DNA of 64,000 bases from Salinibacterium amurskyense (GTDB lineage Bacteria > Actinomycetota > Actinomycetes > Actinomycetales > Microbacteriaceae), in assembly GCF_002797685.1 (NCBI RefSeq), contig NZ_PGFH01000002.1, positions 496,001-560,000 on the forward strand. Reading direction: 5' to 3'. The position numbers were made by a program, and so were the translations under genes. Under the pieces are notes generated by a model, which saw nothing but the letters and a program-made list of their open reading frames with translations, did not search any database and was not told where the DNA came from. The first letter of the stretch is position 1, and every line of letters begins with the position of its first letter. Shown here piece after piece: positions 38,850 through 52,966 of the stretch.

Positions 38850-40346
38850 TTAGGAGATGACGTCTTGCAGCAGTTCTTCGTTGAGGTTCTTGCGAACGAG
38901 CGAGACGACGTAGCCGATCACGAAAGCGATGAACGGCGACAGCACGAGGAACCAGCCGAAGGCGTTGAGGCCGAAGGCGGTCACCGTCGGATCGACTCCA
39001 GCGGCGAGCGTGAGGTCGCCGGCGAGCAGGCCGAAGCGTGACATCAGCAGGTACTCGGCGAGAACGAGACCAATGAAGGCCAGGATCGGCGCAATCATGG
39101 TGACAAAGATGTTCTCGGTTCCCTTGTTCTGAAGGAAGAAGCGGATGATCGCCACGCAGACGAGCGCTTCGATCAGCACGATTGCCACCACGGCGAGGCC
39201 ACTGAACCAGAAGAACATGTTGCCGATGGGGTCGAGCTGGAACGCAGCGAACAGCACAATCACAACACCGCTAATGATCGACACGATGATGGATGCACGA
39301 CCGGGGGCTCCGCGACCGTTCACGGTTCCCACCGAGCTCGCCAGCACGCCACCGCGGCCGAGGGCGAAGAGGTAGCGGCTTGCGGCGTTCTGGAACGCGA
39401 GCAGTCCGGCGAACAGGCTCGAGAGCACGAGGATGCTCATGAGCGTGGCGAGCCACGGTCCGACGTATTCGCTGGCCAGGGTGAAGAGCACAGCGGCCGG
39501 GTCTTCGAGACCGCCTGAGCGTTCGAGCGTCTGGTCGATCACGTTCGAGGCGCCCATGCCGGTGACGAGGGCGAAAGCGGTGAAGGCGAACAGCACGGTG
39601 ATGAGGCCAACAGCAAGGTAGGTAGCGCGCGGTACGGCACGCTTCGGGTTGACGCTCTCTTCGCCGTAGATGGCGGTTGCTTCGAAGCCGATGAAGGAGG
39701 CGAAGGCGAACGCGAACGCGATACCGGCGGAGCCTGCGAGGCCACCAGCGAGAATCAGGTCAGGGGAGAAGGAAGCGCCCCAGTTGAGGCCCTCGGGGCC
39801 ACCATCGGCGAGGATCGCCACGGCTGCGATGACAAGCACGGTGACTTCGGCGAGCATGAGTACACCGAGCAGCTTGGCGCCGACGTCAACGCGAGCAAGC
39901 GAGAGGCCGGTGACGACGAGCCACGCGAGAAGCGTCCAAGCCCACCACGGGAGAAGTCCGACCTGGCCGGCCATGACGCCACCGAAGAAGCCATAGATGG
40001 CGAGCTGGATGGTGAGGTAAGCGAGGATCGACACGAACGACGAGGCGATGCCGGCGTTGCGCCCGAGCCCACGGCCGACGTAGGCGAAGAAGGCGCCGGT
40101 ATTGGTGACGCGTTGGCTCATCGCAGCGTAGCCGACGCTGAACAGGAGAAGCACGATGCCGGCGAACAAGTACGCGCCGGGGGCTGCTGCACCGTTACCG
40201 AGAACGATGGCCACGGGCACCGCGCCAGTCATTCCGACCAGCGGTGCGGCGGCAGCCACAACAAAGAAGACGATTCCGATTACGCCGAGTCGCCCTTTGC
40301 GCAGGGTTCGATCGGGGCTTTCCTGGGATTTTTGGTCAAGCGCCAT
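38850..40346 (-). CDS. APC family amino acid/amine permease
   Basis: ATG 40346 (GAGGAG upstream) gives 498 residues with 12 predicted membrane segments. Helix 1 starts at about residue 25 (GIVFFVVAAAAPLVGMTG) and carries the unwound, substrate-binding pattern of APC transporters. It has the conserved FIGFEATAIYGEES in helix 6. It takes up amino acids or amines with a proton or by exchange. It is the import gene of the cluster and has a probable operator at 40378. Confidence 0.88.
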   Translation of the reverse strand: MALDQKSQESPDRTLRKGRLGVIGIVFFVVAAAAPLVGMTGAVPVAIVLGNGAAAPGAYLFAGIVLLLFSVGYAAMSQRVTNTGAFFAYVGRGLGRNAGIASSFVSILAYLTIQLAIYGFFGGVMAGQVGLLPWWAWTLLAWLVVTGLSLARVDVGAKLLGVLMLAEVTVLVIAAVAILADGGPEGLNWGASFSPDLILAGGLAGSAGIAFAFAFASFIGFEATAIYGEESVNPKRAVPRATYLAVGLITVLFAFTAFALVTGMGASNVIDQTLERSGGLEDPAAVLFTLASEYVGPWLATLMSILVLSSLFAGLLAFQNAASRYLFALGRGGVLASSVGTVNGRGAPGRASIIVSIISGVVIVLFAAFQLDPIGNMFFWFSGLAVVAIVLIEALVCVAIIRFFLQNKGTENIFVTMIAPILAFIGLVLAEYLLMSRFGLLAGDLTLAAGVDPTVTAFGLNAFGWFLVLSPFIAFVIGYVVSLVRKNLNEELLQDVIS

Positions 40347-40377
40347 AGTGAAACTCCTCGTTGAGTTCTGAATCAAT

Positions 40378-40395
40378 TCGTCCGTATCCGAACGA
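40378..40395. promoter_or_regulatory. Cluster palindrome A (permease side)
   Basis: TCGTCC-GTATCC-GAACGA is a palindrome with one arm mismatch, 32 bp from the permease start. It is one of five similar sites (see also 40453, 42784, 46690, 47378). Confidence 0.7.
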
Positions 40396-40452
40396 GTTGC
40401 GTTCAACAATGGCGAAGACAGGGTGTCTTAGTCAAGCGTTTTGAGAAATTCA

Positions 40453-40481
40453 TTCGGATACGAACCGTTTTGGGCTACACT
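40453..40481 (+). promoter_or_regulatory. Cluster palindrome B inside the promoter of the acetoacetate-decarboxylase-family gene
   Basis: TTCG-GATA-CGAA (40453-40464) is a perfect 12-bp palindrome. TTCGGA (40453-40458) is a plausible -35, and TACACT (40476-40481) a -10 at 17 bp. The ATG at 40489 is only 8 nt further on, so the mRNA may be leaderless. Confidence 0.65.
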
Positions 40482-40488
40482 CTGGCGC

Positions 40489-41298
40489 ATGACCGAACTC
40501 AATGGATTCCTTCCTCCACTCACTCCGCAAGGGTCAAGTTCGCTCGTGCCGAAGATGCCCTGGTACTACTCGGGAACGCTACTCACTGTCGAGTACTTGA
40601 CCGATCCAGCCAACGTACGTGCGATCCTTCCTGACGATATTGACCTCGCTCCCGAACAACCTGGCGCCGTTGCCATTGTCTGGGCCGACTGGCAGTCCTG
40701 CAGCACGGGCGGCCTCGAACTGCTCGACCCCGTACGCGCGCAGTACCTCGAAGCGTTCATGGTCGTGCGCTGCTCTCACAAGGGCATCGTCTACAGCCGC
40801 TGCGTCGCGATCTGGGTCAACAAAGACTTCGCCATCGGCCGCGGTTGGTTCCAGGGCTACCCCAAGAAGCTCGGCAACATCGCCGTTACGCGAGTCTTCA
40901 ACAAGGGAAAGGCCACCCCCAAGCTCGAGAACGGCGGCCAGTTCGGCGCCTCTATCGCGGCTTACGACCACCGCCTCGCTTCGGCAGTCGTCACGCTGCG
41001 CGAGCCTGCTGAAAGCAACGGTTTCGTCAACGGCCACAAAATGCTGCACAGCCGCTTCATGCCCTCCATCAGCAAGGATGCAGGAATGTCCCTCGACCAG
41101 CTCATCACGATGGGCGGCACCGACGTCGAGATCGGCGAGACCTGGAAGGGCGATGCTGAGCTTCACCTCGGTGACTCGCAGTGGGATGAGTTGCACTCGA
41201 TCCTGCCCGTGCAAGAGATTCTCGGCGGCTACTACCGCGAGATCGGAGTCACCTTCAACGGTGGCGAACTCGTAGAAGACCGCTCACAGGCGATCTAA
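40489..41298 (+). CDS. Acetoacetate decarboxylase family protein
   Basis: ATG 40489 gives 269 residues. The product matches the acetoacetate decarboxylase fold: PWYYSGT near the start, VRCSHKGI mid-protein with an acidic EAF, and GYPKKLG (Lys126/127) corresponding to the Schiff-base Lys motif. The Arg near the Tyr (SRCVAIW) also fits. Family members decarboxylate beta-keto acids or do aldol/dehydration chemistry. It diverges from the permease within one putative regulon, so I suggest it acts on a cluster intermediate. Its specific reaction is unknown. Confidence 0.85.
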   Translation: MTELNGFLPPLTPQGSSSLVPKMPWYYSGTLLTVEYLTDPANVRAILPDDIDLAPEQPGAVAIVWADWQSCSTGGLELLDPVRAQYLEAFMVVRCSHKGIVYSRCVAIWVNKDFAIGRGWFQGYPKKLGNIAVTRVFNKGKATPKLENGGQFGASIAAYDHRLASAVVTLREPAESNGFVNGHKMLHSRFMPSISKDAGMSLDQLITMGGTDVEIGETWKGDAELHLGDSQWDELHSILPVQEILGGYYREIGVTFNGGELVEDRSQAI

Positions 41299-41359
41299 GC
41301 GCCCGGCGGCGGCGGCATCCGCTCGCTGCCGCAGCCGACACCGCCGCTCATGGCGGCAT

Positions 41360-41400
41360 ACAGAAAAGCCCCGCCTATTCGTTCGGCGGGGCTTTTCTGT
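41360..41400. terminator. Bidirectional terminator between the acetoacetate-decarboxylase-family and GS-like genes
   Basis: A 16-bp perfect stem (41360-41375 with 41385-41400; core AAAAGCCCCGCC/GGCGGGGCTTTT) with a 9-nt loop lies between two convergent genes. Confidence 0.9.
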
Positions 41401-41419
41401 GTCGTCGACCGTTACCGGC

Positions 41420-42766
41420 TTAGTAGTCGGCGAAGTACTCGTCGATCTCCCACTGGCTCACGTCGCGGGTCGTCTTGTCGGCGACAGTATCTTCGTAGCG
41501 CATCACTTCGTCACGCTTCAGTACGCTGAAAACGTCGATGACGGTGCTGCCCATGGTCTCGCGCATGACGGTGTCGGCGTCAAGAGCGTCGAGGGCGGCG
41601 TTGAGGGTCATCGGCAAGATCGGTGCCGATTCGTCTTCGTAAGCCCAACCCTCGACCGCTGAGGGGGCCGTGAGCTTGCGCTTGATGCCATCGAGGCCAG
41701 CAGCCAGAGTGGATGCGATCAGCAGATACGGGTTCGCCGCCGGGTCGCCGAGGCGAACTTCCAGTCGCGTGCCCGCGCCGCGCTCGGGCGGTACCCGCAG
41801 CATCGCGCTGCGGTTATCGTGGCCCCAGTTGGCGCGGTACGGAGCCAAAGTGTCGGGGCCGAGGCGCTTGTAGGCATTGACGGTGGGGTTCGAGAGCGCT
41901 GCGAGTGAGCCAGCATGTTCGAGGATGCCGCCGATCATGTGGTTGGCCATCTCTGAGAGCCCAGAGCCGCCATCCGACATGATGTTGTTGCCGTCTTTGT
42001 CGACGACCGAGAAGTGCAGGTGGAATCCGCTGCCACCCTCGTCGTCCCAGGGTTTGCCCACGAAGAGGGCGTGCTTGCCGGTGCGAGCGACGATGTCGCG
42101 CACTGCGGTCTTGAAGAGGAAGGTGCGGTCAGCGGCATCCAGTGCCTCGCTGTGCCAGAGATTGATCTCGTACTGCGATGGGCTGAATTCGTGGTTGCCG
42201 GCGAAGACGCCGATGTCCATGCCGTCGAGCATGCGCATGAGGTTCAGAAACTCGCCGCCGGGATCGACGCTTTCGCCCGTCGTGTAGACGCGACCCGTGC
42301 GACTGAGGCTGCGACTCCAGCCGTTCTCGTCGTCGTAGTTGGCGATGTAGAACTCGAGCTCGGGGCCCACTGTCGGGGTGAGTCCGAGGGCAGCGTATTC
42401 GGCGATGACCTTCTGCAGTACTGAACGGGGTGCAATTTCGCTGACGCTGTGGTCGGGGTTGAAGGCGTCGCCGACGACGAGGGCAACTCCGGGTTCCCAC
42501 GGCATCATCGTGAGGGTGTTCGGGTCGATCTGAGTGAGAAGGTCGGGCAATCCAGACGACATGATGTCGTTTCCGTCGAGCACGTCGCCGCCGGTGGTGG
42601 TTACCCAGACGCCCTGGCAGAACAGGGGCGACTTCGCGCGGTGCAATTGGCTGACGAGGAGATCTTTGGAGCGGGTAATGCCCAGCACATCCGGAAAGAT
42701 CAGGCGCAGAACATCAATCCCTTTGGCCTGCAGGTCTGTCTGGAGTGCTGCTATGTCGAGAGTCAT
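41420..42766 (-). CDS. Glutamine-synthetase-like gamma-glutamyl-amide ligase
   Basis: ATG 42766 has a perfect GGAGGA. The 448-residue product keeps the GS catalytic fold: ELEFYI (metal Glu), NHEFSPSQYEI, GSGFHLHFS (substrate region), and NRSAMLRVP with REVRLGDPAANPYL at the C-terminal half. It lacks the adenylylation loop Tyr of a housekeeping GlnA and resembles PuuA/GlnA3-type ligases. These add an amine to the gamma-carboxyl of glutamate. It is divergent from a class I glutamine amidotransferase, which supports a ligase-hydrolase pair on an amine, as in aniline and polyamine catabolism. Confidence 0.85.
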   Translation of the reverse strand: MTLDIAALQTDLQAKGIDVLRLIFPDVLGITRSKDLLVSQLHRAKSPLFCQGVWVTTTGGDVLDGNDIMSSGLPDLLTQIDPNTLTMMPWEPGVALVVGDAFNPDHSVSEIAPRSVLQKVIAEYAALGLTPTVGPELEFYIANYDDENGWSRSLSRTGRVYTTGESVDPGGEFLNLMRMLDGMDIGVFAGNHEFSPSQYEINLWHSEALDAADRTFLFKTAVRDIVARTGKHALFVGKPWDDEGGSGFHLHFSVVDKDGNNIMSDGGSGLSEMANHMIGGILEHAGSLAALSNPTVNAYKRLGPDTLAPYRANWGHDNRSAMLRVPPERGAGTRLEVRLGDPAANPYLLIASTLAAGLDGIKRKLTAPSAVEGWAYEDESAPILPMTLNAALDALDADTVMRETMGSTVIDVFSVLKRDEVMRYEDTVADKTTRDVSQWEIDEYFADY

Positions 42767-42783
42767 TCTTCCTCCGAAAAATA

Positions 42784-42805
42784 AATCGTTCGGCACTGAA
42801 CGATT
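42784..42805. promoter_or_regulatory. Cluster palindrome C between the GS-like and amidotransferase genes
   Basis: AATCGTTC-GGCACT-GAACGATT: perfect 8-bp arms around a 6-bp centre, between two divergent starts (42766 and 42877). It can control both directions. Confidence 0.8.
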
Positions 42806-42876
42806 AGTGAGATACTAAGCCACATAGCGGTGTGGCTGTCCACTCATCGCGAGAAATTTACCTGAAAGGTACACAG

Positions 42877-43584
42877 ATGAGAGCCCTCTTGGTGCAACAC
42901 GATCACGTCACCGCCAGTGGCCCAGTGGGGGATCGCCTGCGGGAACGCGGCTTCGAAATCGACGAGATCATGGTTGTAACCGAAGAGAATTTCGAGAACC
43001 CGAACGTTGACTTTGAATTCCCGGATGTCACGGGCTACGACCTCGTCGTTCCGATGGGAGCCCCGTGGGGCGCCTGGGATGACGGCTGCATTGGCAACTG
43101 GTTGACTCCAGAGCTGGAGTGGGTGCGCTCCACCATCGAGGCGGACATCCCGGTGTTGGGCATCTGTTTTGGCGGCCAGCTCATCGCACGAGCGCTCGGC
43201 GGCACGGTTGCCCGCGGTGCGAAGTCGGAGATCGGTTGGACCGCCATTCATAGCGATGACACCTCGCTGGTCTCCAACGGTCCGTGGTTCCAGTTTCACT
43301 ACGACCAGTGGACGATGCCCGAAGGCGCCGTCGAGATCGCCCGCAACCCGGTGGCACCGCAAGCCTTCACGTATGGCCGCAGTCTCGCCGTGCAATTTCA
43401 TCCTGAGCTCAACACCGCGATTCTCGAGGGCTGGCTCGATCAGGGTGGCATCAACGAAGTGATCGAGAGCGGTCAAGACCCAGAAATCATGCTCGCGCAG
43501 ACCCGGGCAGAAGAGGGCGTGGCCGGAGAACGCACGGCGGCTCTCGTGGATGCCTTCCTCGACCGCGTAGCCAAGCTCGGCTAG
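42877..43584 (+). CDS. Class I glutamine-amidotransferase-like protein
   Basis: ATG 42877 (GAAAGG upstream) gives 235 residues. The triad is Cys in GICFGGQ, His in QFHPE and the Glu after it. There is no synthetase domain. Freestanding class I GATase domains such as PuuD and the aniline-pathway AtdA2 hydrolyse gamma-glutamyl amides. With the GS-like ligase it would form a two-step gamma-glutamylation/deglutamylation, or act in the reverse sense. The exact substrate is unknown. Confidence 0.82.
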   Translation: MRALLVQHDHVTASGPVGDRLRERGFEIDEIMVVTEENFENPNVDFEFPDVTGYDLVVPMGAPWGAWDDGCIGNWLTPELEWVRSTIEADIPVLGICFGGQLIARALGGTVARGAKSEIGWTAIHSDDTSLVSNGPWFQFHYDQWTMPEGAVEIARNPVAPQAFTYGRSLAVQFHPELNTAILEGWLDQGGINEVIESGQDPEIMLAQTRAEEGVAGERTAALVDAFLDRVAKLG

Positions 43585-43628
43585 CGAGCTACGTGCAGCC
43601 GAGCAGGCGAGGAGGCGAGCCGTGCAGC

Positions 43629-43964
43629 CTATTGAGCTTTCACCACCGTCAACAGAAATGCGCAGTCTTCGAGCGCATCCACCGCATGAACTTCAGCGGG
43701 AATCGGCATGAGGTCGCCGACCTTTCCATGCCACGACTGATCGCTGGTGCGCAGGGTGATGCTGCCCGTAAGAACTTGAAGGGTCGCTTCGCCGGGGCTT
43801 GAGTGCTCCGAGAGGCCTTCACCGGCCCGCAAAGCCATCACTGTCTGTCTGAGCTGGGCATCGCGCCCACCACATACCGTCACGGCGCTACGGCCGTTGT
43901 TCGAAGCGAGAGCGCTCGCCAGTTCCATTGCGGCAAGCTCGGTCAAAGAAACAGTGGTGTTCAT
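43629..43964 (-). CDS. Cupin-fold small protein
   Basis: ATG 43964 gives 111 residues with AAGGGCG upstream. The pattern MALRAGEGLSEHSSPGEATLQVLTGS...GDLMPIPAEVHAV is a cupin barrel. The first cupin motif has one His and one Glu, and the second His is present, so metal binding is possible. It is the third gene of the P450 operon (64 bp after the decarboxylase). Function in the pathway is unknown. Confidence 0.75.
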   Translation of the reverse strand: MNTTVSLTELAAMELASALASNNGRSAVTVCGGRDAQLRQTVMALRAGEGLSEHSSPGEATLQVLTGSITLRTSDQSWHGKVGDLMPIPAEVHAVDALEDCAFLLTVVKAQ

Positions 43965-44027
43965 CTCGTCACGCCCTTCGTGCACGGTCGGCGTCATCGC
44001 CGTGCAGCAAAGCTACCGCAGCGTGCC

Positions 44028-45398
44028 CTAGCGCAGAGTCTCCAACGCCGCCATCACTTTGGATGCCTCGGTGTCAGGGTTCACGAATGCTAGCCGCAGC
44101 ACAGTCTGGCCGCGCCATTTCGTTGGCACGCAGAGGATAACGCCGTCGTGTGCGACTTGCTTCGACCAGGCGGAATACTGTTCTGCCGTCCACCCGGTTC
44201 GCACAAACAGCAGTACCGAGAGCTCGGGCTCGCGCACGAGTTCGAGGTAGTCGCTCTCGTCGATAGCCTGGGTGACAGCACGCGCGGTCGATACCGAGGC
44301 TTCGATCGCGTCCCGATACTTGTCGGTACCGTGCGTGGCGAGACTGAACCACAGGGGGAGTCCGCGCACGCGCCGCGAGAGGTGCAGGGCGAGCTCGCTG
44401 GGGTTCCATTCGTTGCGGTCGATGGCATCCAAATAGCTGGCGTGCTGAGAGTGCACGGCCCGGGCAAGCTCGGGTTCGCGATAAATCAGCGCACAGCAGT
44501 CGTACGGCGCAAAGAGCCACTTGTGCGGGTCGACGATAAAGCTGTCGGCCCGTTCAATGCCGTCGAAGATGGGGCGGATGCTCGGGGCGGCGAGCCCCGC
44601 ACCGCCATAGGCGCCATCGACGTGCATCCAGACACCGAACTCTTCGCAGACGTCGGCAATGTCGGCAAGGTCGTCGACGAGGCCTTCGTTGGTCGTTCCG
44701 GCGGATGCCACCACGGCAAACACGTTCGGTGACTGTTCGAGAACGGCCCGCAGGGCTGCCCCGGTCATGTGTCCGCGGTCATCGATGGGCACATCGACCC
44801 GATCAACGTCGAGCGCTTTCGCGGCCGAGTTGATCGAAGAGTGAGCGTTGGACGTATAAGCGAGTTGCCAGCCGCCAGCAGGGCGACCGCCGCGACGCGT
44901 CTTGGCGGTTTCGCGGGCCGTCATGAGCGCCGAGAGGTTGCCCGAGGTGCCCCCGGAGACGAACGTTCCGCCAGCGGTCTCGGGCCAATCGAGCAGACCG
45001 ATGATCCACTGCAGTGCTTGGTTCTCGGCAAAGATGGCGCCAGCACCGGACTCCCAGAGCCCACCAAAAATGTTGGCAGAACTGGTGACGAGATCGAAGG
45101 CAACTGCCGCCCGTGTGGGCGCGGCGGCGATGTAAGCGAGGTTCAGCGGGTCATCTTGAGCCCGCGTTGCCGGCTCGAGAATCTCGTCGAAAATCCGGAG
45201 CGCTTCTGCGCCGCCGATTCCCTCCGGACGGATCGCGTGACCCACCGCTGCCGCCAGATCGGCCGCAGGCCGTGCTGTCGAAAATGGGTCGGTTTCGCGG
45301 ACCATTCTTTTGGAGGTCCAGTCGAGGGCGAGCTGCACTACTTCAGTCTCGTCGCCCCAGACTGCGTGGGGTCTGCCTTGTGGCCGCACTTCGCTCAT
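44028..45398 (-). CDS. PLP-dependent group II amino acid decarboxylase
   Basis: The 456-residue product shows the group II decarboxylase markers: GGTSGNLSAL, SNAHSSINSAAKAL, ASAGTTNEGLVDDL, VDGAYGG and the Schiff-base Lys in DPHKW near residue 303. It resembles the aromatic-L-amino-acid/2,4-diaminobutyrate decarboxylase group. It would turn an amino acid into its amine and CO2. It starts 21 bp after the P450 stop on the same strand, so it is in that operon. In this setting a decarboxylase for tyrosine, DOPA or a related amino acid is an attractive hypothesis, not a conclusion. Confidence 0.85.
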   Translation of the reverse strand: MSEVRPQGRPHAVWGDETEVVQLALDWTSKRMVRETDPFSTARPAADLAAAVGHAIRPEGIGGAEALRIFDEILEPATRAQDDPLNLAYIAAAPTRAAVAFDLVTSSANIFGGLWESGAGAIFAENQALQWIIGLLDWPETAGGTFVSGGTSGNLSALMTARETAKTRRGGRPAGGWQLAYTSNAHSSINSAAKALDVDRVDVPIDDRGHMTGAALRAVLEQSPNVFAVVASAGTTNEGLVDDLADIADVCEEFGVWMHVDGAYGGAGLAAPSIRPIFDGIERADSFIVDPHKWLFAPYDCCALIYREPELARAVHSQHASYLDAIDRNEWNPSELALHLSRRVRGLPLWFSLATHGTDKYRDAIEASVSTARAVTQAIDESDYLELVREPELSVLLFVRTGWTAEQYSAWSKQVAHDGVILCVPTKWRGQTVLRLAFVNPDTEASKVMAALETLR

Positions 45399-45419
45399 GC
45401 AACTACCTCGCTCATGTGC

Positions 45420-46664: not shown

Positions 46665-46689
46665 TGAAGTCAACTCAATCCTCCGTGGG

Positions 46690-46707
46690 TTGTTTGGATA
46701 CAAACAA
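46690..46707. promoter_or_regulatory. Cluster palindrome D (P450 side)
   Basis: TTGTTT-GGATAC-AAACAA: perfect 6-bp arms with the same GGATAC centre as palindrome A on the opposite strand, 26 bp upstream of the P450 start. Confidence 0.78.
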
Positions 46708-46810
46708 TACGGTACCCGAACAAGTTTCCGCGAGTATTCGCGTCAAATCTTTCTGGGTGGCAGGGGTTAGATAGAGTAACCGCAGCTAAATGCGAGCGAG
46801 GGGACCCTCC

Positions 46811-47311
46811 GTGGCCGGACCACACACACTGACTGAAACCGAGCGCCAGGTGCAGGCGAGAGTCGGCGGCCTGCCGCTCGACTACTCCGCGATGGCTGTT
46901 GCGTCGAATCTGTTTCGTGCCGCTAACGCCGTGCGTAACCATTTCGAGCGCACCGTGCTCTCAGAGCACAACCTGTCGTGGACGGCATTCGTGGTGTTGT
47001 GGGTTACGTGGATCTGGGAGCCCATCGAAACTCGTCAAATTGCACTCGAGGGCGGATTCTCTAAAGCCACTCTCACGGGAGTGCTCACGACGCTCGAACG
47101 CCGCGGTTGGTTGACGCGCGAGCGCAGCGATACTGATGGTCGTCTTGTTGTTGTGAAGCTCACCGATCGTGGTCGCGAACTCATGACCGAGTTGTTCCCG
47201 GCCTTCAACCTGCAAGAGCAGGCAGTGACGGGCCCGGTTGATCCCGAACGCCGCGAGGAGCTGGCTGAGATGCTGCGCCTCATCACGGCCGGCGTTGAGC
47301 CCAAGCCCTAG
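46811..47311 (+). CDS. MarR family regulator, probable controller of the cluster
   Basis: GTG 46811 (166 residues) is preferred over the in-frame ATG at 46790 because GAGGGGA precedes it. The winged HTH is visible in LSWTAFVVLWVTWIWEPIETRQIALEGGFSKATLTGVLTTLERRGWLTRERSDTDGR-like order, here with DGR in the wing. It lies divergent from the P450 operon and upstream of the dehydrogenase-dioxygenase operon, and palindromes lie on both sides. MarR proteins bind 16-20 bp palindromes and release them on phenolic or CoA ligands, so it is the best candidate for reading the five sites. Confidence 0.9.
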   Translation: MAGPHTLTETERQVQARVGGLPLDYSAMAVASNLFRAANAVRNHFERTVLSEHNLSWTAFVVLWVTWIWEPIETRQIALEGGFSKATLTGVLTTLERRGWLTRERSDTDGRLVVVKLTDRGRELMTELFPAFNLQEQAVTGPVDPERREELAEMLRLITAGVEPKP

Positions 47312-47377
47312 GTAATTCACATTTTTTAGTGGTCTGTTGTCCTCAATGCTTGTTTGGGGTCTAATCACTCGCTAAGG

Positions 47378-47403
47378 TAAGTCATTAGCATCCGAATGAC
47401 TTA
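47378..47403. promoter_or_regulatory. Cluster palindrome E (aldehyde dehydrogenase operon)
   Basis: TAAGTCATT-AGCATCCG-AATGACTTA: perfect 9-bp arms, 29 bp before the dehydrogenase start. The reverse complement has TTCGGATGC, close to the TTCGGATAC of the other sites. Confidence 0.8.
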
Positions 47404-47431
47404 ACGGCGAGCGATTCGAGACGGGACAACT

Positions 47432-48895
47432 ATGACCAACGTTAAAGTAGCCGGAGTGACCGTCGATACGCGGCACTTCATCAATGGAGAACGCGTCGCC
47501 TCAGACGAGACGTTCACCAACACGTCACCGATCGACGCCAGCCCCCTCGGAGAAATCTCCCGCGGCGGTCAGCGCGAAGTCGACATGGCTGTCGCTGCCG
47601 CTCGTGCAGCATTCCCCGGATGGGCTGCCACGAGCCCGAAAGACCGTGCAGCCATCATGCACAAGATCGCCGACCTCGTTGAAGAGCGCGTCTCCGAGCT
47701 CGCCAACGTTGAGACGATGGACAACGGCGCGCTCCTGCGCAGCCACCTGCGCGGCGTGATGCCGCGAGTGGCCCACAACTTCCGGTTCTTCGCCGACTAT
47801 CTCGTGAACGACCTCGGGCATCCGGACTTCGAAACTCGCGGCCACAACAACCACGTCTCGTGGGACCCCTCGGGAGTCGCCGCTCTCATCACGCCGTGGA
47901 ACGCGCCGCTCATGCTCGCCACCTGGAAGATCGCTCCGGCGCTCGCCGCGGGCGACACGGTCGTGCTCAAGCCGGCCGAGTGGACGCCGCTCACGGCATC
48001 CCTCTTCGCCGACATCACCGCTGAAGCGGGCCTTCCTGCCGGTGTCTTCAACGTTGTGCAGGGTTACGGCAAAGAAGCGGGCGCTTCGCTCGTTGCTCAC
48101 CCCGACCTCAGCCGCATCTCGTTCACCGGTTCGGTGCCGACGGCCAAGTCGATCGCTCGTGCCGCCGCCGACAACCTCACCCCCTGCAGCTTCGAACTCG
48201 GGGGCAAGAGCCCGTGCATCGTCATGGAAGACGCCGACCTCGAGCTCGCCGCAACTCTCGCGGTCGAGCAGTACGACAACGCTGGCCAGGTCTGCCTCTC
48301 CGGTACCCGCATCCTCGTTCACGAGAACATTGCGGATGCCTTTGCCGAAGCCTTCAAAGCCAAGGTTGCGACCCTGCGCCAAGGCGACCCTCGCGACATC
48401 GAGACCGACATCGGGCCGCAGGTTCACCGCGTGCACTTCGAACGCATCAAGGGATTTGTTGATCGCGCGAAAGACGGCGGAGCCAACATCGTTTTCGGTG
48501 GCGAGCCGAACGCAGAGCTTGGTGGGCTCTACTTCTCGCCGACTCTCGTCAAGAACCCCGAGGTCGACAGCGAAATCGTCACCCAGGAGGTCTTCGGGCC
48601 GGTGCTCACGATGCAGACCTTCACAACGGATGACGAACTCGTCGCCATGGCGAACGGCACCGAGTTTGGCCTCGCCGCCATTCTCGTCTCGGGCAACCGC
48701 GAGCACGCTGACGTTATCGCCAAGCAGCTCGTCGCCGGCACGATCTGGGTCAACTGCTTCTTCGTGCGTGACTTGCGGGCACCTTTCGGCGGTTCCAAGA
48801 AGTCGGGTGTTGGTCGCGAGGGTGGCACGTGGTCGTTTGATTTCTACGCAGATGTAAAGAACACGGTGGTTTCACCGAACGGATGGAAGGAATAG
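47432..48895 (+). CDS. Aldehyde dehydrogenase, HpaE/AmnC-like semialdehyde type
   Basis: The 487-residue product has PWNAPLML, FTGSVPTAKSI, ELGGKSPCIV (Glu general base) and NAGQVCLSGTRI (catalytic Cys). Near the C-terminus, NCFFVRDLRAPFGG and GVGREGG follow the HpaE (5-carboxymethyl-2-hydroxymuconic semialdehyde dehydrogenase) and 2-aminomuconic semialdehyde dehydrogenase branch. This fits oxidation of a meta-cleavage product by NAD+. It opens an operon with the dioxygenase, 2 bp away. Confidence 0.9.
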   Translation: MTNVKVAGVTVDTRHFINGERVASDETFTNTSPIDASPLGEISRGGQREVDMAVAAARAAFPGWAATSPKDRAAIMHKIADLVEERVSELANVETMDNGALLRSHLRGVMPRVAHNFRFFADYLVNDLGHPDFETRGHNNHVSWDPSGVAALITPWNAPLMLATWKIAPALAAGDTVVLKPAEWTPLTASLFADITAEAGLPAGVFNVVQGYGKEAGASLVAHPDLSRISFTGSVPTAKSIARAAADNLTPCSFELGGKSPCIVMEDADLELAATLAVEQYDNAGQVCLSGTRILVHENIADAFAEAFKAKVATLRQGDPRDIETDIGPQVHRVHFERIKGFVDRAKDGGANIVFGGEPNAELGGLYFSPTLVKNPEVDSEIVTQEVFGPVLTMQTFTTDDELVAMANGTEFGLAAILVSGNREHADVIAKQLVAGTIWVNCFFVRDLRAPFGGSKKSGVGREGGTWSFDFYADVKNTVVSPNGWKE

Positions 48896-48897
48896 TC

Positions 48898-49809
48898 ATG
48901 GGAGAAGTAGTTGGCGCTGGGCTGATCGCCCACGTACCTACAATCATGTTGCCCAAAGAGATCCGTATGGAGCTCAATGAGGGCAAGGACTCAACGCTCG
49001 TTGAAGGCCTCGAACGACTCCGCAAGGACTACTTCGAGAATGACGACTACGACACTGTTGTCGTGCTCGACAGCCACTGGGCGACCACGGTTGAATTCGT
49101 CGTCACGGCGCACGAGCGTCGCCACGGCAAGTTCACGTCAGAAGAACTGCCCCGCGGAATGAGCGGGGTGCCGTACGACTTCATCGGCGACCCCGAGCTC
49201 GCGAAACTCATGGGGGAGCAGGCCGAAAAGAACGGTACCTGGATCACCCCGATCGACGACGAGTACCTGCCGATCATGTACGCCACGATCAACCTGTGGG
49301 AGTACCTCGGCAAGGGTCTTCCTGACAAGAAGTGGGTCAGCGTTTCCATCTGCCAGACCGCGACCGATGAGGACTTCCTTCGGGCGGGTCGTGCCATTGG
49401 CGAAGCGATTGCCAAGAGTGATCGCCGCGTCATCCTCCTCGCTTCTGGTGCGCTCTCGCACACGTTCTACAAGCTGCGCGATCTGCGCAAGCACGAGATG
49501 GCTGATCCGGCCCACATTTTCTCGGATGCTGCCCGCGAGGCAGACTACGAACGTCTCGACTGGTTCAAGGCCGGCGACCACGCTCAGGTGCTGGAGACCA
49601 TGCCCGCGTTCCAGAAGGTGCGCCCCGAGGCCATGTTTGGCCACTGGCTCATGACCGCGGGTGCGATCGGCGAAGAAGCCTGCACCGCCCCCGGCGTGAT
49701 GTACAGCGAGTACGAAAATTCGATCGGCACCGGTCAGGTGCACGTATGGTTCCCGAAGCCCGAAGGTGGCTTCCCGGCAGCAAAGGATGTGGTCCTTTCT
49801 CGTGACTGA
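48898..49809 (+). CDS. Class III (LigB-type) extradiol ring-cleavage dioxygenase, HpcB-like
   Basis: ATG 48898 has GGAAGGAA. The 303-residue product shares the layout of HpcB 3,4-dihydroxyphenylacetate 2,3-dioxygenase: AHVPT (metal His12), VVLDSHW (His60), TSEELP, LASGALSHTF and GTGQVHVWFP at the end. These enzymes use Fe(II) and O2 to open a catechol next to the hydroxyls, giving a yellow semialdehyde. Homoprotocatechuate is the likely class of substrate; 2-aminophenol is an alternative in the same superfamily. Confidence 0.85.
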   Translation: MGEVVGAGLIAHVPTIMLPKEIRMELNEGKDSTLVEGLERLRKDYFENDDYDTVVVLDSHWATTVEFVVTAHERRHGKFTSEELPRGMSGVPYDFIGDPELAKLMGEQAEKNGTWITPIDDEYLPIMYATINLWEYLGKGLPDKKWVSVSICQTATDEDFLRAGRAIGEAIAKSDRRVILLASGALSHTFYKLRDLRKHEMADPAHIFSDAAREADYERLDWFKAGDHAQVLETMPAFQKVRPEAMFGHWLMTAGAIGEEACTAPGVMYSEYENSIGTGQVHVWFPKPEGGFPAAKDVVLSRD

Positions 49810-50680
49810 GTTCCGCAGAGTACTTCTTGATGGATACCCGACGCAGGTAACGCGTCACGGTGACGTTCTCGTCGCCGGTGATGGCCGAGAGGTGGGAGTC
49901 GACGAGGCAATTCACCTGCCGCCGACCGAGCCGAGCAAGATCATCGCCGTGCACTTGAACTACGCCAGCCGCACCGAAGAGTTCATGACAAAGCTGCCCG
50001 CTGCGCCGACTTACTTTCAGAAGCCGGTCACCGCGCTCAACACTCACAAGGGGGATGTTGTGCGGCCCGAGGGCTGCAAGTGGTTGAACTTCGAGGGTGA
50101 GATCGTCATCGTGATCGGCCGCACGTGCCGCAATGTTTCGCCCGACCAGGCCAGCGACTACATCGCCGGCTACTCGATCGGTAACGACTACGGTCTGCAC
50201 GATTTCCGCGACACGGATGCCGGTTCCATGCTTCGCGTCAAGGGCAGCGACACGCTCGCTCCTGTTGGCCCCGGCCTCGTGACGGATTGGGATTTCCGCG
50301 GCAAGCAGTTGCGCACCATCGTCAACGGTGAAGTCAAGCAAGACGACAACACCGACAACATGGAGTGGGACATGAACTACCTCGTGGCCGATATTGCTCG
50401 CACGATCACGTTGAGCCCCGGCGACATGCTGTTCTCGGGAACGCCCGCGTTCTCGCGTCCGGTTCAGCCTGGCGACGTTGTTGAGGTCGAAGTTGAAGGT
50501 CTGGGCAAGCTGACGAACCGTATCGTTACGGGTCCGACTGCGATCCGCACCGACGTGGGGGCACAGCCCACAGAGTCTGAAGAGGTAATGTCGACGGCAA
50601 TGGGTGGCGACTGGGAGTTCCGAGGAATTCGGACCCCGTCGAAGGATCTCTACCCATCGAAGATTGAGGAAAAGCGATGA
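49802..50680 (+). CDS. Fumarylacetoacetate hydrolase family protein (HpaG-like isomerase/decarboxylase/hydratase)
   Basis: GTG 49802 overlaps the dioxygenase stop and gives 292 residues. The FAH fold has HLNYASR, PTYFQKPVTAL, NFEGEIVIVIG with the acidic metal ligands, and GNDYGLHDFRD. This family contains HpaG and 4-oxalocrotonate decarboxylase/hydratase enzymes that act after meta cleavage and dehydrogenation. It fits the next step of the pathway. The rest of a canonical lower pathway (HpaF, HpaH, HpaI) is not in this window. Confidence 0.85.
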   Translation: MTEFRRVLLDGYPTQVTRHGDVLVAGDGREVGVDEAIHLPPTEPSKIIAVHLNYASRTEEFMTKLPAAPTYFQKPVTALNTHKGDVVRPEGCKWLNFEGEIVIVIGRTCRNVSPDQASDYIAGYSIGNDYGLHDFRDTDAGSMLRVKGSDTLAPVGPGLVTDWDFRGKQLRTIVNGEVKQDDNTDNMEWDMNYLVADIARTITLSPGDMLFSGTPAFSRPVQPGDVVEVEVEGLGKLTNRIVTGPTAIRTDVGAQPTESEEVMSTAMGGDWEFRGIRTPSKDLYPSKIEEKR

Positions 50681-50868
50681 TCAAAATCGAAGTCGACATG
50701 AACCAGTGCCAGCACTATGGCCAGTGTGTGTTTGAGGCACCCGACAACTTCAAGCTCAACGATGACGACAAGCTCGAGTACGTGGCCGAAGCGCCCGACT
50801 CGGAGCGCGACAACATCGAAGCCGCTGTTGATGTATGCCCGATGCAGGCCATCCGAATCGTCGAATAG
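50677..50868 (+). CDS. [3Fe-4S] ferredoxin of the P450 type
   Basis: The 63-residue protein has CQHYGQC and a CPMQA motif, giving three Cys (C-x5-C...CP) for a [3Fe-4S] cluster, typical of ferredoxins that feed class I P450s. ATGA overlaps the previous stop, and the reductase start follows directly (TAGTG). It transfers electrons from the reductase to the P450. Confidence 0.92.
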   Translation: MIKIEVDMNQCQHYGQCVFEAPDNFKLNDDDKLEYVAEAPDSERDNIEAAVDVCPMQAIRIVE

Positions 50869-52094
50869 TGTCTGAGGCTAACCCCGCCGCACCGGTCGTT
50901 ATTGTCGGTGCGGCGATGGGTGGGCTGCGCGCGGCGGAGTCTCTTCGCCGTTCGGGCTACACCGGCGCTATCCGCGTGGTTGGTGAAGAACTTCACGCGC
51001 CTTATAACCGTCCACCCCTCTCTAAAGAGGTGTTGGCCAGCGATGTAACCCACGAGGCTGTGGCGTTCCCGTCGCGTGCCGAAATGGGCGACGTCGAATG
51101 GATGCTCGGGGTGCGGGCAACTGCGGTCGATCTCGATGCGCACACTCTCACCACCGACGATGGGTCTGTGCAGGAGTGGCGTGCCCTGGTTATCGCGACG
51201 GGCCTGCGCGCTCGCCGCTTGGATTTTGCCCCGATTGCCGGGCGTCACGTTGTCCGTTCGCTGGATGACGCGATGGCTCTGCGCGCCGAACTCACCGAGG
51301 GTGCGCGCGTTGTGGTCGTCGGCTCAGGCTTCTTAGGCTGTGAACTGAGCGCCACCGCTCGCAAGCTCGGCTGCGAAGTCACCATTGTGACGCCGAGTGC
51401 CGAGCCCATGATGCGTCCGTTGGGTGACCTCGTCGCGAAGGAAATGCGTCGTCGACTCACCGATGAGGGCGTAGAGATTTTCTCCGGTGTGACTGTTGCG
51501 GCGATCAACGGCGAGGCTGCGGTCGAGTCTGTTGAGCTGAGCGATGGCCGCGTTATTGAGGCCGATGTCGTGATTGAGTCTGTTGGCTCGCACTGCAACA
51601 TCGAGTGGCTTGAGGGAACGAACCTCGACGTCGCGGACGGAGTGCTCGCTGACAACGCGATGCGCGCTGTCACGACCGACGGTCGTGCTCTCGATGACGT
51701 CTACGTTGTGGGCGATATCGCTCGCTTCCCGAACCCCATGTTCGATAACGTTGCCCGTCGAATCGAGCACTGGAACATCCCCACCGACACCGGCAAGCGT
51801 GCGGGCGCCGTGCTCGCAGCGCACCTCGCCGACGACGGATCCTTCGCCGATGTGGTGGCGAAGCCTTTCGCTCCGATGCCGTCGTTCTGGTCGAACCAGT
51901 TCGAGATCAAACTGCAGGCCTACGGTCTGTTGGGCTTGGTGTCGGATGACGACATCCGCGTGCTTGAGGGAGACCTCAGCGACCAGGCTGCCGTGGGTTA
52001 CTACCGCGAGGGCCGTCTCGTAGGCGTACTCGGAATTGGCATGAAGGCCGCGCTGCTGCCGTATCGCAAGCAGATTGCGGAGGGCGGCGCGTAG
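50868..52094 (+). CDS. FAD-dependent ferredoxin reductase
   Basis: GTG 50868 overlaps the ferredoxin stop by one base and gives 408 residues. An N-terminal FAD motif (VIVGAAMGGLRAAESLRR), a central NAD motif (VVVVGSGFLGCELSATARKLG) and YVVGDIARFPN place it in the oxygenase-coupled NADH-ferredoxin reductase family (BphA4/putidaredoxin-reductase type). It completes the P450 electron chain. The C-terminal reductase domain is intact. Confidence 0.93.
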   Translation: MSEANPAAPVVIVGAAMGGLRAAESLRRSGYTGAIRVVGEELHAPYNRPPLSKEVLASDVTHEAVAFPSRAEMGDVEWMLGVRATAVDLDAHTLTTDDGSVQEWRALVIATGLRARRLDFAPIAGRHVVRSLDDAMALRAELTEGARVVVVGSGFLGCELSATARKLGCEVTIVTPSAEPMMRPLGDLVAKEMRRRLTDEGVEIFSGVTVAAINGEAAVESVELSDGRVIEADVVIESVGSHCNIEWLEGTNLDVADGVLADNAMRAVTTDGRALDDVYVVGDIARFPNPMFDNVARRIEHWNIPTDTGKRAGAVLAAHLADDGSFADVVAKPFAPMPSFWSNQFEIKLQAYGLLGLVSDDDIRVLEGDLSDQAAVGYYREGRLVGVLGIGMKAALLPYRKQIAEGGA

Positions 52095-52150
52095 CCGTAT
52101 TCACACCGTTGTCTCTGGGCAGTGGAGAAGCGGGGTCGTAGGCTGGCCTT

Positions 52151-52966
52151 ATGACTCCCGCTTCGACTATCGCCGTTGCCCAGTTCGTTCCTGGCCATGA
52201 TCGCGATGAGAACATCGCGCAGATCACCGAGCTCGCTGAGCGCGCCGTTGAGCGTGGCGCGAGTTTTGTGATCTTTCCGGAGTACTCGTCGTACTTCACC
52301 GCCACGATGGGCGAAGACTGGGTCACCGCCGCCGAGCCCCTCGACGGCCCTTTCGTGCAGGCGTTGACCTCGCTCGCCCAGCGCTTGCGGATTCATGTCG
52401 CTGCGGGAATGTTGCAGTCGAGTGAGGAAGATAACCGCTTCTGGAACACCCTCGTCGCGATTGCTCCCACCGGTGCGATCGTCGCGACTTACAGCAAACA
52501 GCACCTCTACGACGCGTTCGGTCAGCGTGAATCCGACTGGGTCATTCCCGGGTCGATTGCGGCGCCGCAGACCTTCGCGTGGGAGGGCTTCACCGTCGGT
52601 TTGCAGACTTGCTACGACATCCGTTTTCCGGAGGTGTCACGCCGGTTGGTGGATGCCGGGGCCAACCTCATTGTGGTGCCAGCCGAGTGGGTGCGTGGTC
52701 CGCTCAAGGAGTACCACTGGCGCACGCTGCTCACGGCGCGGGCGATCGAGAACACCGTCTTTGTGGCGGCGGCTGACCACGCCCCGCCGATCGGTGTCGG
52801 CAACAGCATGGTCGTCGACCCGATGGGGGTGGAGCTCGTGACGATTGGGGAGCGCACGGATGTCGCTGTCGCTCACATCGAGCACGCTCGCCTTGACGAG
52901 GTGCGGGCGACCAACCCGGCGCTATCGTTACGTCGCTATGGAGTGCACCCGCTCGAGGAGCGTTAG
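52151..52966 (+). CDS. Nitrilase-family carbon-nitrogen hydrolase
   Basis: ATG 52151 gives 271 residues with the triad Glu44 (FPEYSS), Lys116 (YSKQHLYDAFG) and Cys154 (LQTCYDIRFPEV). It hydrolyses an amide or a related C-N bond. It is 56 bp after the reductase gene on the same strand, with no palindrome, so it may be read through as the last gene of the cluster. An omega-amidase or amide-cleaving role in the pathway is possible but untested. Confidence 0.88.
   Translation: MTPASTIAVAQFVPGHDRDENIAQITELAERAVERGASFVIFPEYSSYFTATMGEDWVTAAEPLDGPFVQALTSLAQRLRIHVAAGMLQSSEEDNRFWNTLVAIAPTGAIVATYSKQHLYDAFGQRESDWVIPGSIAAPQTFAWEGFTVGLQTCYDIRFPEVSRRLVDAGANLIVVPAEWVRGPLKEYHWRTLLTARAIENTVFVAAADHAPPIGVGNSMVVDPMGVELVTIGERTDVAVAHIEHARLDEVRATNPALSLRRYGVHPLEER

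Follow-up and report, generated by a model that had tools for sequence, protein, structure and literature searches.

Why should a bacterium keep probable genes for the ATP-dependent glutamylation of amines directly beside probable genes for opening aromatic rings? The question is raised by positions 38850-52966 of a 64,000-nucleotide stretch of contig NZ_PGFH01000002.1 of Salinibacterium amurskyense (positions 496,001 to 560,000, forward strand; hereafter the window). The genome has 2.78 Mb; where this locus is concerned, it is closest, among named organisms, to Salinibacterium species and the marine actinobacterium PHSC20C1. All the enzymes expected in this interval are encoded by open frames, each matching its Pfam family. 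A sequence-only reading of the window had listed a permease, a ligase, an amidotransferase, a decarboxylase, a cytochrome P450 with its redox partners and ring-cleavage enzymes; all of these are real genes with Pfam matches, and the list has to be extended by a gene of the acetoacetate decarboxylase (ADC) family, a MarR-type regulator and a small cupin. We favor, with some reserve, the view that they constitute a single catabolic unit, controlled by MarR, that acts on an aromatic amine, most likely an arylethylamine. This proposal is built on gene content, family membership, the retention or loss of catalytic residues, co-occurrence, an operator-like site and the absence of HpaH and HpaI matches from most of the tested bearers of the cluster; from these we infer each substrate and reaction, the order of the steps, the timing of glutamate removal and the link between regulator and operator.

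Gene linkage and a shared operator-like site

A scan of named genomes with the LigB/HpaD-like extradiol dioxygenase of the cluster (48883-49809, forward strand; PF02900) recovered 45 loci. The same query matched 20 genomes in a set of 149 relatives, including 13 of the 26 other members of the genus, and 54 of 396 Actinomycetota, 36 of them (window genome included) with an identity of at least 45%; one or two in-frame stops interrupt 8 of the 36 rows. Stretches were retrieved for 18 of the phylum matches, 4 of the relatives and several plasmid records. To be counted, a locus had to contain a dioxygenase of at least 45% identity and to reach 8.5 kb or more ahead of the middle of that gene and 3 kb or more beyond it. 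This gave 53 loci exclusive of the window; 16 of the 45 named loci were dropped, and L075, L076 and L129 were among the loci left out. Partners were counted within 10 kb of the dioxygenase, at identity floors of 33% for the glutamine synthetase (GS)-like ligase, 35% for the P450, 45% for the aldehyde dehydrogenase, 28% for the decarboxylase, 23% for the APC-family permease and 30% for all others. On this basis the GS-like ligase and the aldehyde dehydrogenase each accompany the dioxygenase in 46 of the 53 loci, the FAH-family protein in 44, the P450 in 43, the ADC-family protein in 41 and the MarR regulator in 40, followed by the permease and the class I glutamine amidotransferase-like protein (GATase; 32 each), the ferredoxin and its reductase (31 each), the decarboxylase (23) and a PuuD-like hydrolase (19).

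The sequence-only reading had named unlinked members in related genomes as the observation that would count against it; instead, linkage is upheld, with the GS-like ligase or the P450 near the dioxygenase in 48 of the 53 loci and both in 41. Gene order is kept across the 27 loci of the Microbacteriaceae type, and in the other 26 it is shuffled, with either gene present in 21 and both in 14. In Actinomycetota and in Novosphingobium the partners recur, arranged differently. As recurrence of partners in shuffled order is what a shared pathway predicts, the genes of the cluster form one system. That the grouping exceeds chance is further indicated by the P450 (45420-46664, reverse strand; PF00067), the sole P450 found in the genome, lying precisely here.

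Facing leftward and rightward, respectively, are the permease (38850-40346, reverse strand; PF00324, 89.4 bits) and the ADC-family gene (40489-41298, forward strand; PF06314, 201.6 bits), and likewise the GS-like ligase (41420-42766, reverse strand; PF00120, 313.6 bits) and the GATase (42877-43584, forward strand; PF00117). The P450, decarboxylase and cupin genes run leftward with spacings of 21 and 30 bp, and the regulator (46790-47311, forward strand; PF01047) runs rightward. Behind it follows a rightward run of the aldehyde dehydrogenase (47432-48895, forward strand), the dioxygenase, the FAH-family protein (49802-50680, forward strand; PF01557, 186.8 bits), a 63-residue ferredoxin (50677-50868, forward strand; PF13370) and an FAD-dependent ferredoxin reductase (50868-52094, forward strand; PF07992 and PF14759), with a carbon-nitrogen hydrolase at its end.

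A palindrome resembling TCRTTHGGATRCDAAYGA lies in the promoter gaps of the cluster. With up to four mismatches allowed, it is present in 24 of 26 permease/ADC gaps, 36 of 36 ligase/GATase gaps, 37 of 37 P450/MarR gaps, 20 of 21 MarR/aldehyde dehydrogenase gaps and 16 of 16 PuuD/aldehyde dehydrogenase gaps, that is, in 133 of 136 promoter gaps versus 0 of 166 junctions elsewhere in these loci, the consensus being derived from the very gaps scored and close relatives being counted separately. Base-shuffled gaps reach this level 1.0 to 4.4% of the time. Across four whole genomes, 26 distinct sites have two or fewer mismatches, 16 of them in the cluster (four each), and the reversed pattern gives 1, 2, 1 and 7 matches. 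Within the window, the copies are TCGTTCGGATACGGACGA (40378-40395, reverse strand, one mismatch; genome match C2:536378-536395) and TCATTCGGATACGAACCG (40450-40467, forward strand, two mismatches) at the permease/ADC promoter, TCGTTCGGCACTGAACGA (42786-42803, forward strand, four mismatches to the consensus, inside perfect 8-bp arms at 42784-42805) between ligase and GATase, TTGTTTGGATACAAACAA (46690-46707, forward strand, two mismatches) at the P450/MarR promoter, and TCATTCGGATGCTAATGA (47382-47399, reverse strand, no mismatches) at the promoter of the rightward run. The permease/ADC gap of the window is one of the three misses, because the called starts overrun the sites at 40378 and 40450. 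Since conserved sites fall inside several called open reading frames (the permease call began at a TTG at 40409), we judge these calls too long; the true ATG starts are likely at 40346 (permease), 40489 (ADC), 42766 (GS-like ligase), 42877 (GATase) and 46664 (P450). The regulator, a proposed repressor, finds HpaR as its best NCBIfam model (54 bits, below the cut-off of 121.2), and we suggest that it binds the operator-like site, such that the cluster is apparently under one switch.

An amine module joined to a ring-cleavage set

The GS-like ligase retains the ATP- and glutamate-binding residues (the ExE motif and the His269 equivalent in 64 of 64 aligned sequences, and the R/E/R triad in 63, 63 and 64 of 64), and the ammonia-site glutamate is replaced in all 62 non-housekeeping sequences aligned, the Ipu and other plasmid ligases among them. 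Both housekeeping GlnA proteins of the window genome retain it. We take the lost residue to be the Glu327 equivalent. Loss of ammonia-site residues, with a flap residue numbered Glu357, is described for the glutamyl-organic-amine synthases (GoaS) in passages of a study of such ligases (PMC11335346), and the ligase of the window has the same combination of a lost ammonia-site glutamate and retained ATP and glutamate sites. The Cys/His/Glu triad of the GATase, a proposed gamma-glutamyl-amide hydrolase, is conserved in 36 of 36 sequences above 40% identity. Together with the class I P450, the ferredoxin and the reductase, these two proteins place an Ipu-type module in one locus.

In the tree, the P450 falls within a largely GS-linked clade of 55 rows (support 100/94), 54 of which come from dioxygenase loci and one from Ruegeria. 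The Ipu P450s (L081 and L082) fall outside it, and those of L121, L129 and L131 differ too. A motif of the F-G loop, PF-x-[SHA]-P, is present in 55 of 59 GS-linked P450s versus 3 of 14 that are not GS-linked; it is missing from four linked P450s, namely the two Ipu enzymes and those of L121 and L131, which are of the different kind. All three unlinked P450s that possess it sit in the clade, two (L042 and L059) on cut contigs. The closest structure is the reconstructed ancestor CYP125MRCA (46% identity; living CYP125 about 33%), and the structure model has a mean predicted local distance difference test (pLDDT) score of 81. GS-linked P450s outside the clade that keep the motif were observed in Sagittula, Mesorhizobium and Novosphingobium humi (L077, L079 and L138 being their record labels as a group), and these are perhaps further gamma-glutamylamide systems for other substrates. 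On the megaplasmid of Ruegeria TM1040, genes for a GATase, the clade P450 and a GS-like ligase adjoin paaABCD, with no dioxygenase and with a dehydrogenase matching PuuC best several kb away; this is a possible phenethylamine version of the module.

In the ring-cleavage set, the dioxygenase scores highest on the NCBIfam model HpaD (128.9 bits, cut-off 315.95) and the aldehyde dehydrogenase on HpaE (TIGR02299, 514.8 bits, cut-off 638.35), and the FAH-family protein is matched by the general model PRK12764 (219.7 bits, cut-off 444) ahead of the HpaG C-terminal model TIGR02303 (201.3 bits, cut-off 276.4), HpaG (1gtt) being its top solved-structure match. The HpcB- and HpaE-like labels of the sequence-only reading thus named the right nearest models, but with both scores below the curated cut-offs the two proteins appear to be relatives of the HpaD and HpaE families rather than members. 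The dioxygenase model (pLDDT 92) best matches the fold of 3,4-dihydroxyphenylacetate 2,3-dioxygenase (8iq8; template-modeling scores 0.83/0.90), the next closest being 2-aminophenol 1,6-dioxygenases. It shares His17, His65, Glu249 and His193 with 7 of 7 annotated HpaD proteins, residues that are presumably the iron ligands and the catalytic histidine. It differs from the same seven at positions fixed in 24 of 24 cluster-type sequences, including Arg28, Thr69, His254, Glu278 and His287. A Sphingobium dioxygenase (L076) from a locus with no GS match shares these residues. A role for Arg28 and Glu278 in a gamma-glutamyl pocket was considered and dropped, as both occur in L076 and L062, each lacking a GS match.

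We regard the ring-cleavage set as a divergent version of the homoprotocatechuate type. Another member of the genus (G013) carries hpa-type genes besides the cluster, with HpaE matches of 640.3 bits (over the cut-off) and 626.3 bits, and HpaH (334.9 bits) and HpaI (287.0 bits) matches that are both under their own cut-offs; hence, the cluster is probably more than a further copy of the hpa route. A simple hpa operon was likewise set aside, given the missed cut-offs and unmatched HpaH and HpaI.

In the classical homoprotocatechuate route, decarboxylation is followed by steps that require HpaH and HpaI. Neither model found a match in the window genome, and both were unmatched in 11 of 13 family bearers and 13 of 21 bearers tested, an absence that covers these two families and not other hydratases or aldolases. 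Within the genus, HpaH-/HpaI-type genes were observed in G007, which lacks the cluster, and in G013 alongside it. The ADC-family protein has MppR as its nearest NCBIfam model (173.3 bits, below the cut-off of 380), and a lysine in its GYPKKLG motif is conserved in 58 of 58 sequences and aligns with four relatives in the PDB, MppR being among the nearest; we take it to be the catalytic lysine. The Sphingobium locus L076 is the complement, combining a 38%-identical dioxygenase and genes annotated as hydratase and aldolase with no ADC match. In phenol-grown Saccharolobus, according to passages of the published account, the ADC-family proteins Sso1221 and Sso1222 are induced about 80-fold and were suggested to be MppR-like aldolases (PMC7820114). 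Given the unmatched HpaH and HpaI, the retained lysine, the L076 complement and this archaeal precedent, we propose that the ADC-family protein is probably a hydratase-aldolase replacing both enzymes.

Proposed pathway and the timing of nitrogen release

In the pathway that we propose, the permease would import an amine, or the decarboxylase would make it from an amino acid. The GS-like ligase would couple it to glutamate using ATP, and the P450, supplied by the ferredoxin and the FAD reductase, would hydroxylate the gamma-glutamyl amide, as its Ipu counterpart does. The HpaD-like dioxygenase would open the resulting catechol, the HpaE-like dehydrogenase would oxidize the semialdehyde, the FAH-family enzyme would isomerize and decarboxylate the product, and the ADC-family enzyme would hydrate the oxo-enoate and split it into a C4 aldehyde and pyruvate. 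The GATase, or PuuD in relatives, would take the glutamate off.

The decarboxylase (44028-45398, reverse strand; PF00282, 198 bits) is a group II pyridoxal phosphate (PLP) enzyme that, lying 21 bp behind the P450, is likely co-transcribed with it. Its best NCBIfam model is diaminobutyrate decarboxylase (167.8 bits versus a cut-off of 900), and its closest solved relatives are 4obu (which we take to be a tryptophan decarboxylase), an enzyme of the desferrioxamine pathway and DOPA decarboxylase. The sequence-only reading counted it as a member; it is present in the window, but it is an optional one, found in 23 of the 53 loci, and its best model is not an aromatic decarboxylase. We rejected it as core on the strength of this count, the more so because matches near 30% identity may belong to group II enzymes of another kind. 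Where present, it suggests that the amine is made from an amino acid, and a C6-C2 skeleton is suggested by the dioxygenase being of the HpaD type; on these grounds the substrate would be an amine resembling tyramine or dopamine. Also rejected as core were the cupin (43629-43997, reverse strand; PF07883, E=5.4e-4, below the cut-off) and the carbon-nitrogen hydrolase of the nitrilase type (52151-52966, forward strand; PF00795, 160.8 bits), an accessory gene or mere neighbor, as they were found in 6 and 11 loci. A plain polyamine (Puu) cluster was also set aside, the ring set being core.

No amine oxidase was detected among the 14 cluster genes scanned, the PuuB-type FAD Pfam family included and the rest of the genome not being covered; therefore, either it is the P450 that severs the C-N bond, or the amine is retained. 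We tentatively entertain the second course, wherein the gamma-glutamyl group would stay on the ethylamine side chain through hydroxylation, ring opening and cutting. A gamma-glutamyl-dopamine-like catechol would stand in for homoprotocatechuate, and its eight-carbon unit would yield CO2, pyruvate and gamma-glutamyl-4-aminobutanal, from which a PuuC-/PatD-like dehydrogenase, followed by PuuD or the GATase, would release gamma-aminobutyrate (GABA) and glutamate without an amine oxidase ever being needed. Such retention would account for the company that PuuA-, PuuC- and PuuD-like genes keep with the ring set, for the lack of any observed amine oxidase and for the drift of the ring enzymes away from HpaD, HpaE and HpaG. 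It predicts a linked aminobutanal-type dehydrogenase and gamma-glutamyl-GABA hydrolase, rather than a succinate-semialdehyde dehydrogenase (SSADH). Among 17 second dehydrogenases at dioxygenase loci, the best model is PuuC for nine (two of them cut by the edge of the retrieved locus), PatD for three (above the cut-off, from near-identical loci), another model for five (three lactaldehyde-type from related genomes, plus those of L074 and L076) and SSADH for none. Ten other dehydrogenases of genomes G000 and G013, picked non-randomly, are matched best by SSADH (three), HpaE (two), and BADH, ExaC, StyD and PuuC (one each), one having no match at threshold; the sole PuuC-best protein sits about 15 kb from the cluster in G013. 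PuuC-, PatD- or PuuD-like genes adjoin the cluster in other lineages, and a GABA transaminase over the cut-off adjoins it in L036. Against retention of the amine stands the lack of a linked PuuC-/PatD-like dehydrogenase in the window and its close kin, and of PuuD in the window. Because several relatives have a dehydrogenase about 16 kb to the left of the dioxygenase, the window was checked at about 32 kb for a PuuC-like one, with none found there; the best PuuC score in the genome (391 bits) belongs to an unlinked gene with another best model, and PatD (673.7 bits) is also at an unlinked place. PatD and GabT were discarded as linked evidence, since they exceed their cut-offs in 27 and 29 of 30 genomes irrespective of the cluster, both being widespread in the genus.

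The first course, in which nitrogen leaves before the ring is opened, is possible but doubtful. The P450 would hydroxylate the carbon next to the nitrogen of a gamma-glutamyl-arylethylamide to give glutamine and an arylacetaldehyde, a dehydrogenase would convert the latter to homoprotocatechuate, and the ring set would run the classical route to pyruvate and succinate semialdehyde. The HpaD and HpaE best models, the standing of HpaG as first structural and second model match of the FAH-family protein, and the fold match to 8iq8 all suit this course, as does the Ruegeria TM1040 arrangement of same-clade P450, GS-like ligase and GATase beside phenylacetyl-CoA epoxidase genes; moreover, the PuuC-like dehydrogenases could act on arylacetaldehyde. 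It is harder to reconcile with the sub-threshold scores of all three ring enzymes, with the positions at which the cluster-type dioxygenases depart from HpaD (though L076 shares these), with SSADH being best for none of the 17 second dehydrogenases, and with the separate hpa-type genes of G013. The sequence-only reading posited that an aromatic amine or aromatic amino acid is broken down via a dihydroxyphenylacetate-type intermediate. Breakdown of such a compound via a catechol-type intermediate is still the best reading, with dihydroxyphenylacetate itself no more than a candidate, given the sub-threshold scores of the ring enzymes and the hpa-type genes of G013.

It is improbable that the glutamate is placed on a ring amine, with the P450 oxidizing an anilide and the dioxygenase opening a catechol or aminophenol. 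While the aniline and 1-naphthylamine systems share the ligase and GATase logic, as passages of their description indicate (PMC11335346), and 2-aminophenol 1,6-dioxygenases come next in fold, the known systems use a Rieske dioxygenase, none of which was found among 20 window genes scanned, the 2-aminophenol enzymes score far lower by sequence (34.5 versus 82.9 bits), and a PLP decarboxylase suits an alkylamine better than aniline. That two neighboring pathways, one for amine use and one for aromatic breakdown, share locus and regulator by chance strikes us as very unlikely: the same partners in different orders in Actinomycetota and Novosphingobium, and one operator-like site at the promoters of both halves, argue against it, even though records of Sagittula, Ruegeria and Mesorhizobium show the GS-like ligase and P450, together with a GATase or PuuD-like gene, in the absence of the ring set, L127, L128 and L130 show the ring set with neither ligase nor P450, and the GABA-type genes near L036 hint at general amine use.

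Several observations weigh against a single amine-degrading unit as we propose it, beginning with the undetected amine oxidase. Neither the GS-like ligase nor the P450 is near the dioxygenase in 5 of the 53 loci (L062, L071, L127, L128 and L130), although in L128 and L130 this may reflect the limits of the retrieved stretch; 11 of the 27 loci of the Microbacteriaceae type have no decarboxylase; the GS/P450 pairs just mentioned exist without the dioxygenase; and L121, L129 and L131 carry a different P450 (25-26%). An HpaH- or HpaI-like gene is present in 8 of the 21 bearers (five HpaH-like, five HpaI-like, two with both). The operator counts depend on a consensus drawn from the scored gaps themselves, and scans of the window alone gave 58 matches versus 44.0 expected (5 of 100 shuffles having as many) and, in a second scan, 11 versus 5.25 (1 of 100 shuffles); an operator called from the window alone was rejected as weak, its strength coming only from comparison across loci. 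Furthermore, Streptomyces sp. AV19 (L061) and S. caatingaensis (L062) have 55-56% identical dioxygenases without the amine module. Genes for a zinc-type dehydrogenase, a protein resembling asparagine synthase and a large activator of transcription (BTAD in L062) lie nearby, an arrangement that is possibly a biosynthetic cluster using the same ring-opening enzyme.

Relationship to known systems and wider significance

The Ipu pathway for isopropylamine was first described in Pseudomonas KIE171. In Paenarthrobacter aurescens TC1, genes for the GATase, P450, ferredoxin, reductase and ipuC lie close together on both pTC1 and pTC2, with an amino acid permease annotated in the pTC2 stretch. Passages of a published account have the Ipu P450 converting gamma-glutamyl-isopropylamide to gamma-glutamyl-alaninol, an amidotransferase being postulated to act next (PMC6776027). 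By analogy, the half of the cluster comprising ligase, GATase-type protein and class I P450 with its redox partners may work like Ipu. The Ipu P450s differ in lying outside the cluster clade and lacking the F-G loop motif, and no ring-cleavage or ADC gene was found in the two plasmid stretches read. The aniline (AtdA) and 1-naphthylamine (NpaA) systems likewise couple a GoaS-type ligase without ammonia-site residues to a GATase-like hydrolase feeding an oxygenase, as far as the relevant passages go (PMC11335346), and the NpaA1 structure 8wwu matches the cluster ligase with 193.9 bits; however, they use a Rieske dioxygenase in place of the P450 and the nitrogen is on the ring. With the homoprotocatechuate pathway (HpaD/HpcB, HpaE, HpaG) the cluster shares families and the expected order of chemistry, but its enzymes are below the curated cut-offs and the window has the ADC gene instead of HpaH/HpaI. 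Like Puu, the cluster would gamma-glutamylate an amine, and a PuuD-like hydrolase (19 of 53 loci) or a PuuC-best dehydrogenase (9 of 17 loci with a second dehydrogenase) recurs; unlike Puu, it adds ring cleavage, no PuuB-kind oxidase is among the window genes scanned and the window lacks PuuC and PuuD. The ADC-family aldolases MppR and Sso1221/Sso1222 share the family and the lysine region, with the difference that the cluster protein, whose activity we propose by analogy, is linked to a homoprotocatechuate-like set.

The sequence-only reading held the parts to be known singly, which does not apply to the amine half, as ligase, GATase, P450, ferredoxin and reductase are already together in the TC1 loci; its sense of novelty holds for the fusion with the ring set. 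The individual parts are known, and what is new is the fusion of an Ipu-type module to a homoprotocatechuate-type set with an ADC gene, a combination under one operator-like site for which no description was found in the literature searched (open-licence papers).

Certain neighborhoods deserve separate mention. The lunaemycin cluster of Streptomyces lunaelactis, as drawn to 72,040 on pSLUN1 (L073, 61-76 kb of the record), takes in, at its edge, the permease, GS, MarR and ADC genes of an orthologous set, with passages of its description giving Lun33, Lun34 and Lun36 an unknown role and Lun35 one in regulation (PMC9866976). Since dioxygenase, FAH and PLP enzyme genes continue past that edge, the four genes probably belong to the catabolic set and not to lunaemycin. 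Downstream of the cluster in L036 and L037, an agmatine-deiminase-like gene (recognized by eye) adjoins a PLP decarboxylase of 46-48% identity; L036 additionally carries a PucR-type regulator and a glutamate-type dehydrogenase besides its GABA transaminase. SDR-type and luciferase-like monooxygenase-type genes recur near the cluster (L120-L122, L124, L129, L131, L072, L073 and L075), and a GcvT-like folate protein in four related f31 loci (partial in L120) could hint at O-demethylation of a methoxylated substrate.

If our proposal is correct, the strategy of glutamate tagging followed by P450 attack, known for a small alkylamine, would apply to aromatic amines as well, both across many Actinomycetota, among them small-genome lineages such as Aurantimicrobium, and on at least one alphaproteobacterial plasmid (Novosphingobium EMRT-2). 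It would also define a P450 clade recognizable by its F-G loop motif, whose likely substrates are glutamylated amides. Moreover, it makes testable the notion that ADC-fold enzymes serve as hydratase-aldolases of meta-cleavage pathways, as suggested for archaeal phenol use, and the notion that a biogenic aromatic amine may be dismantled while its nitrogen is still masked.

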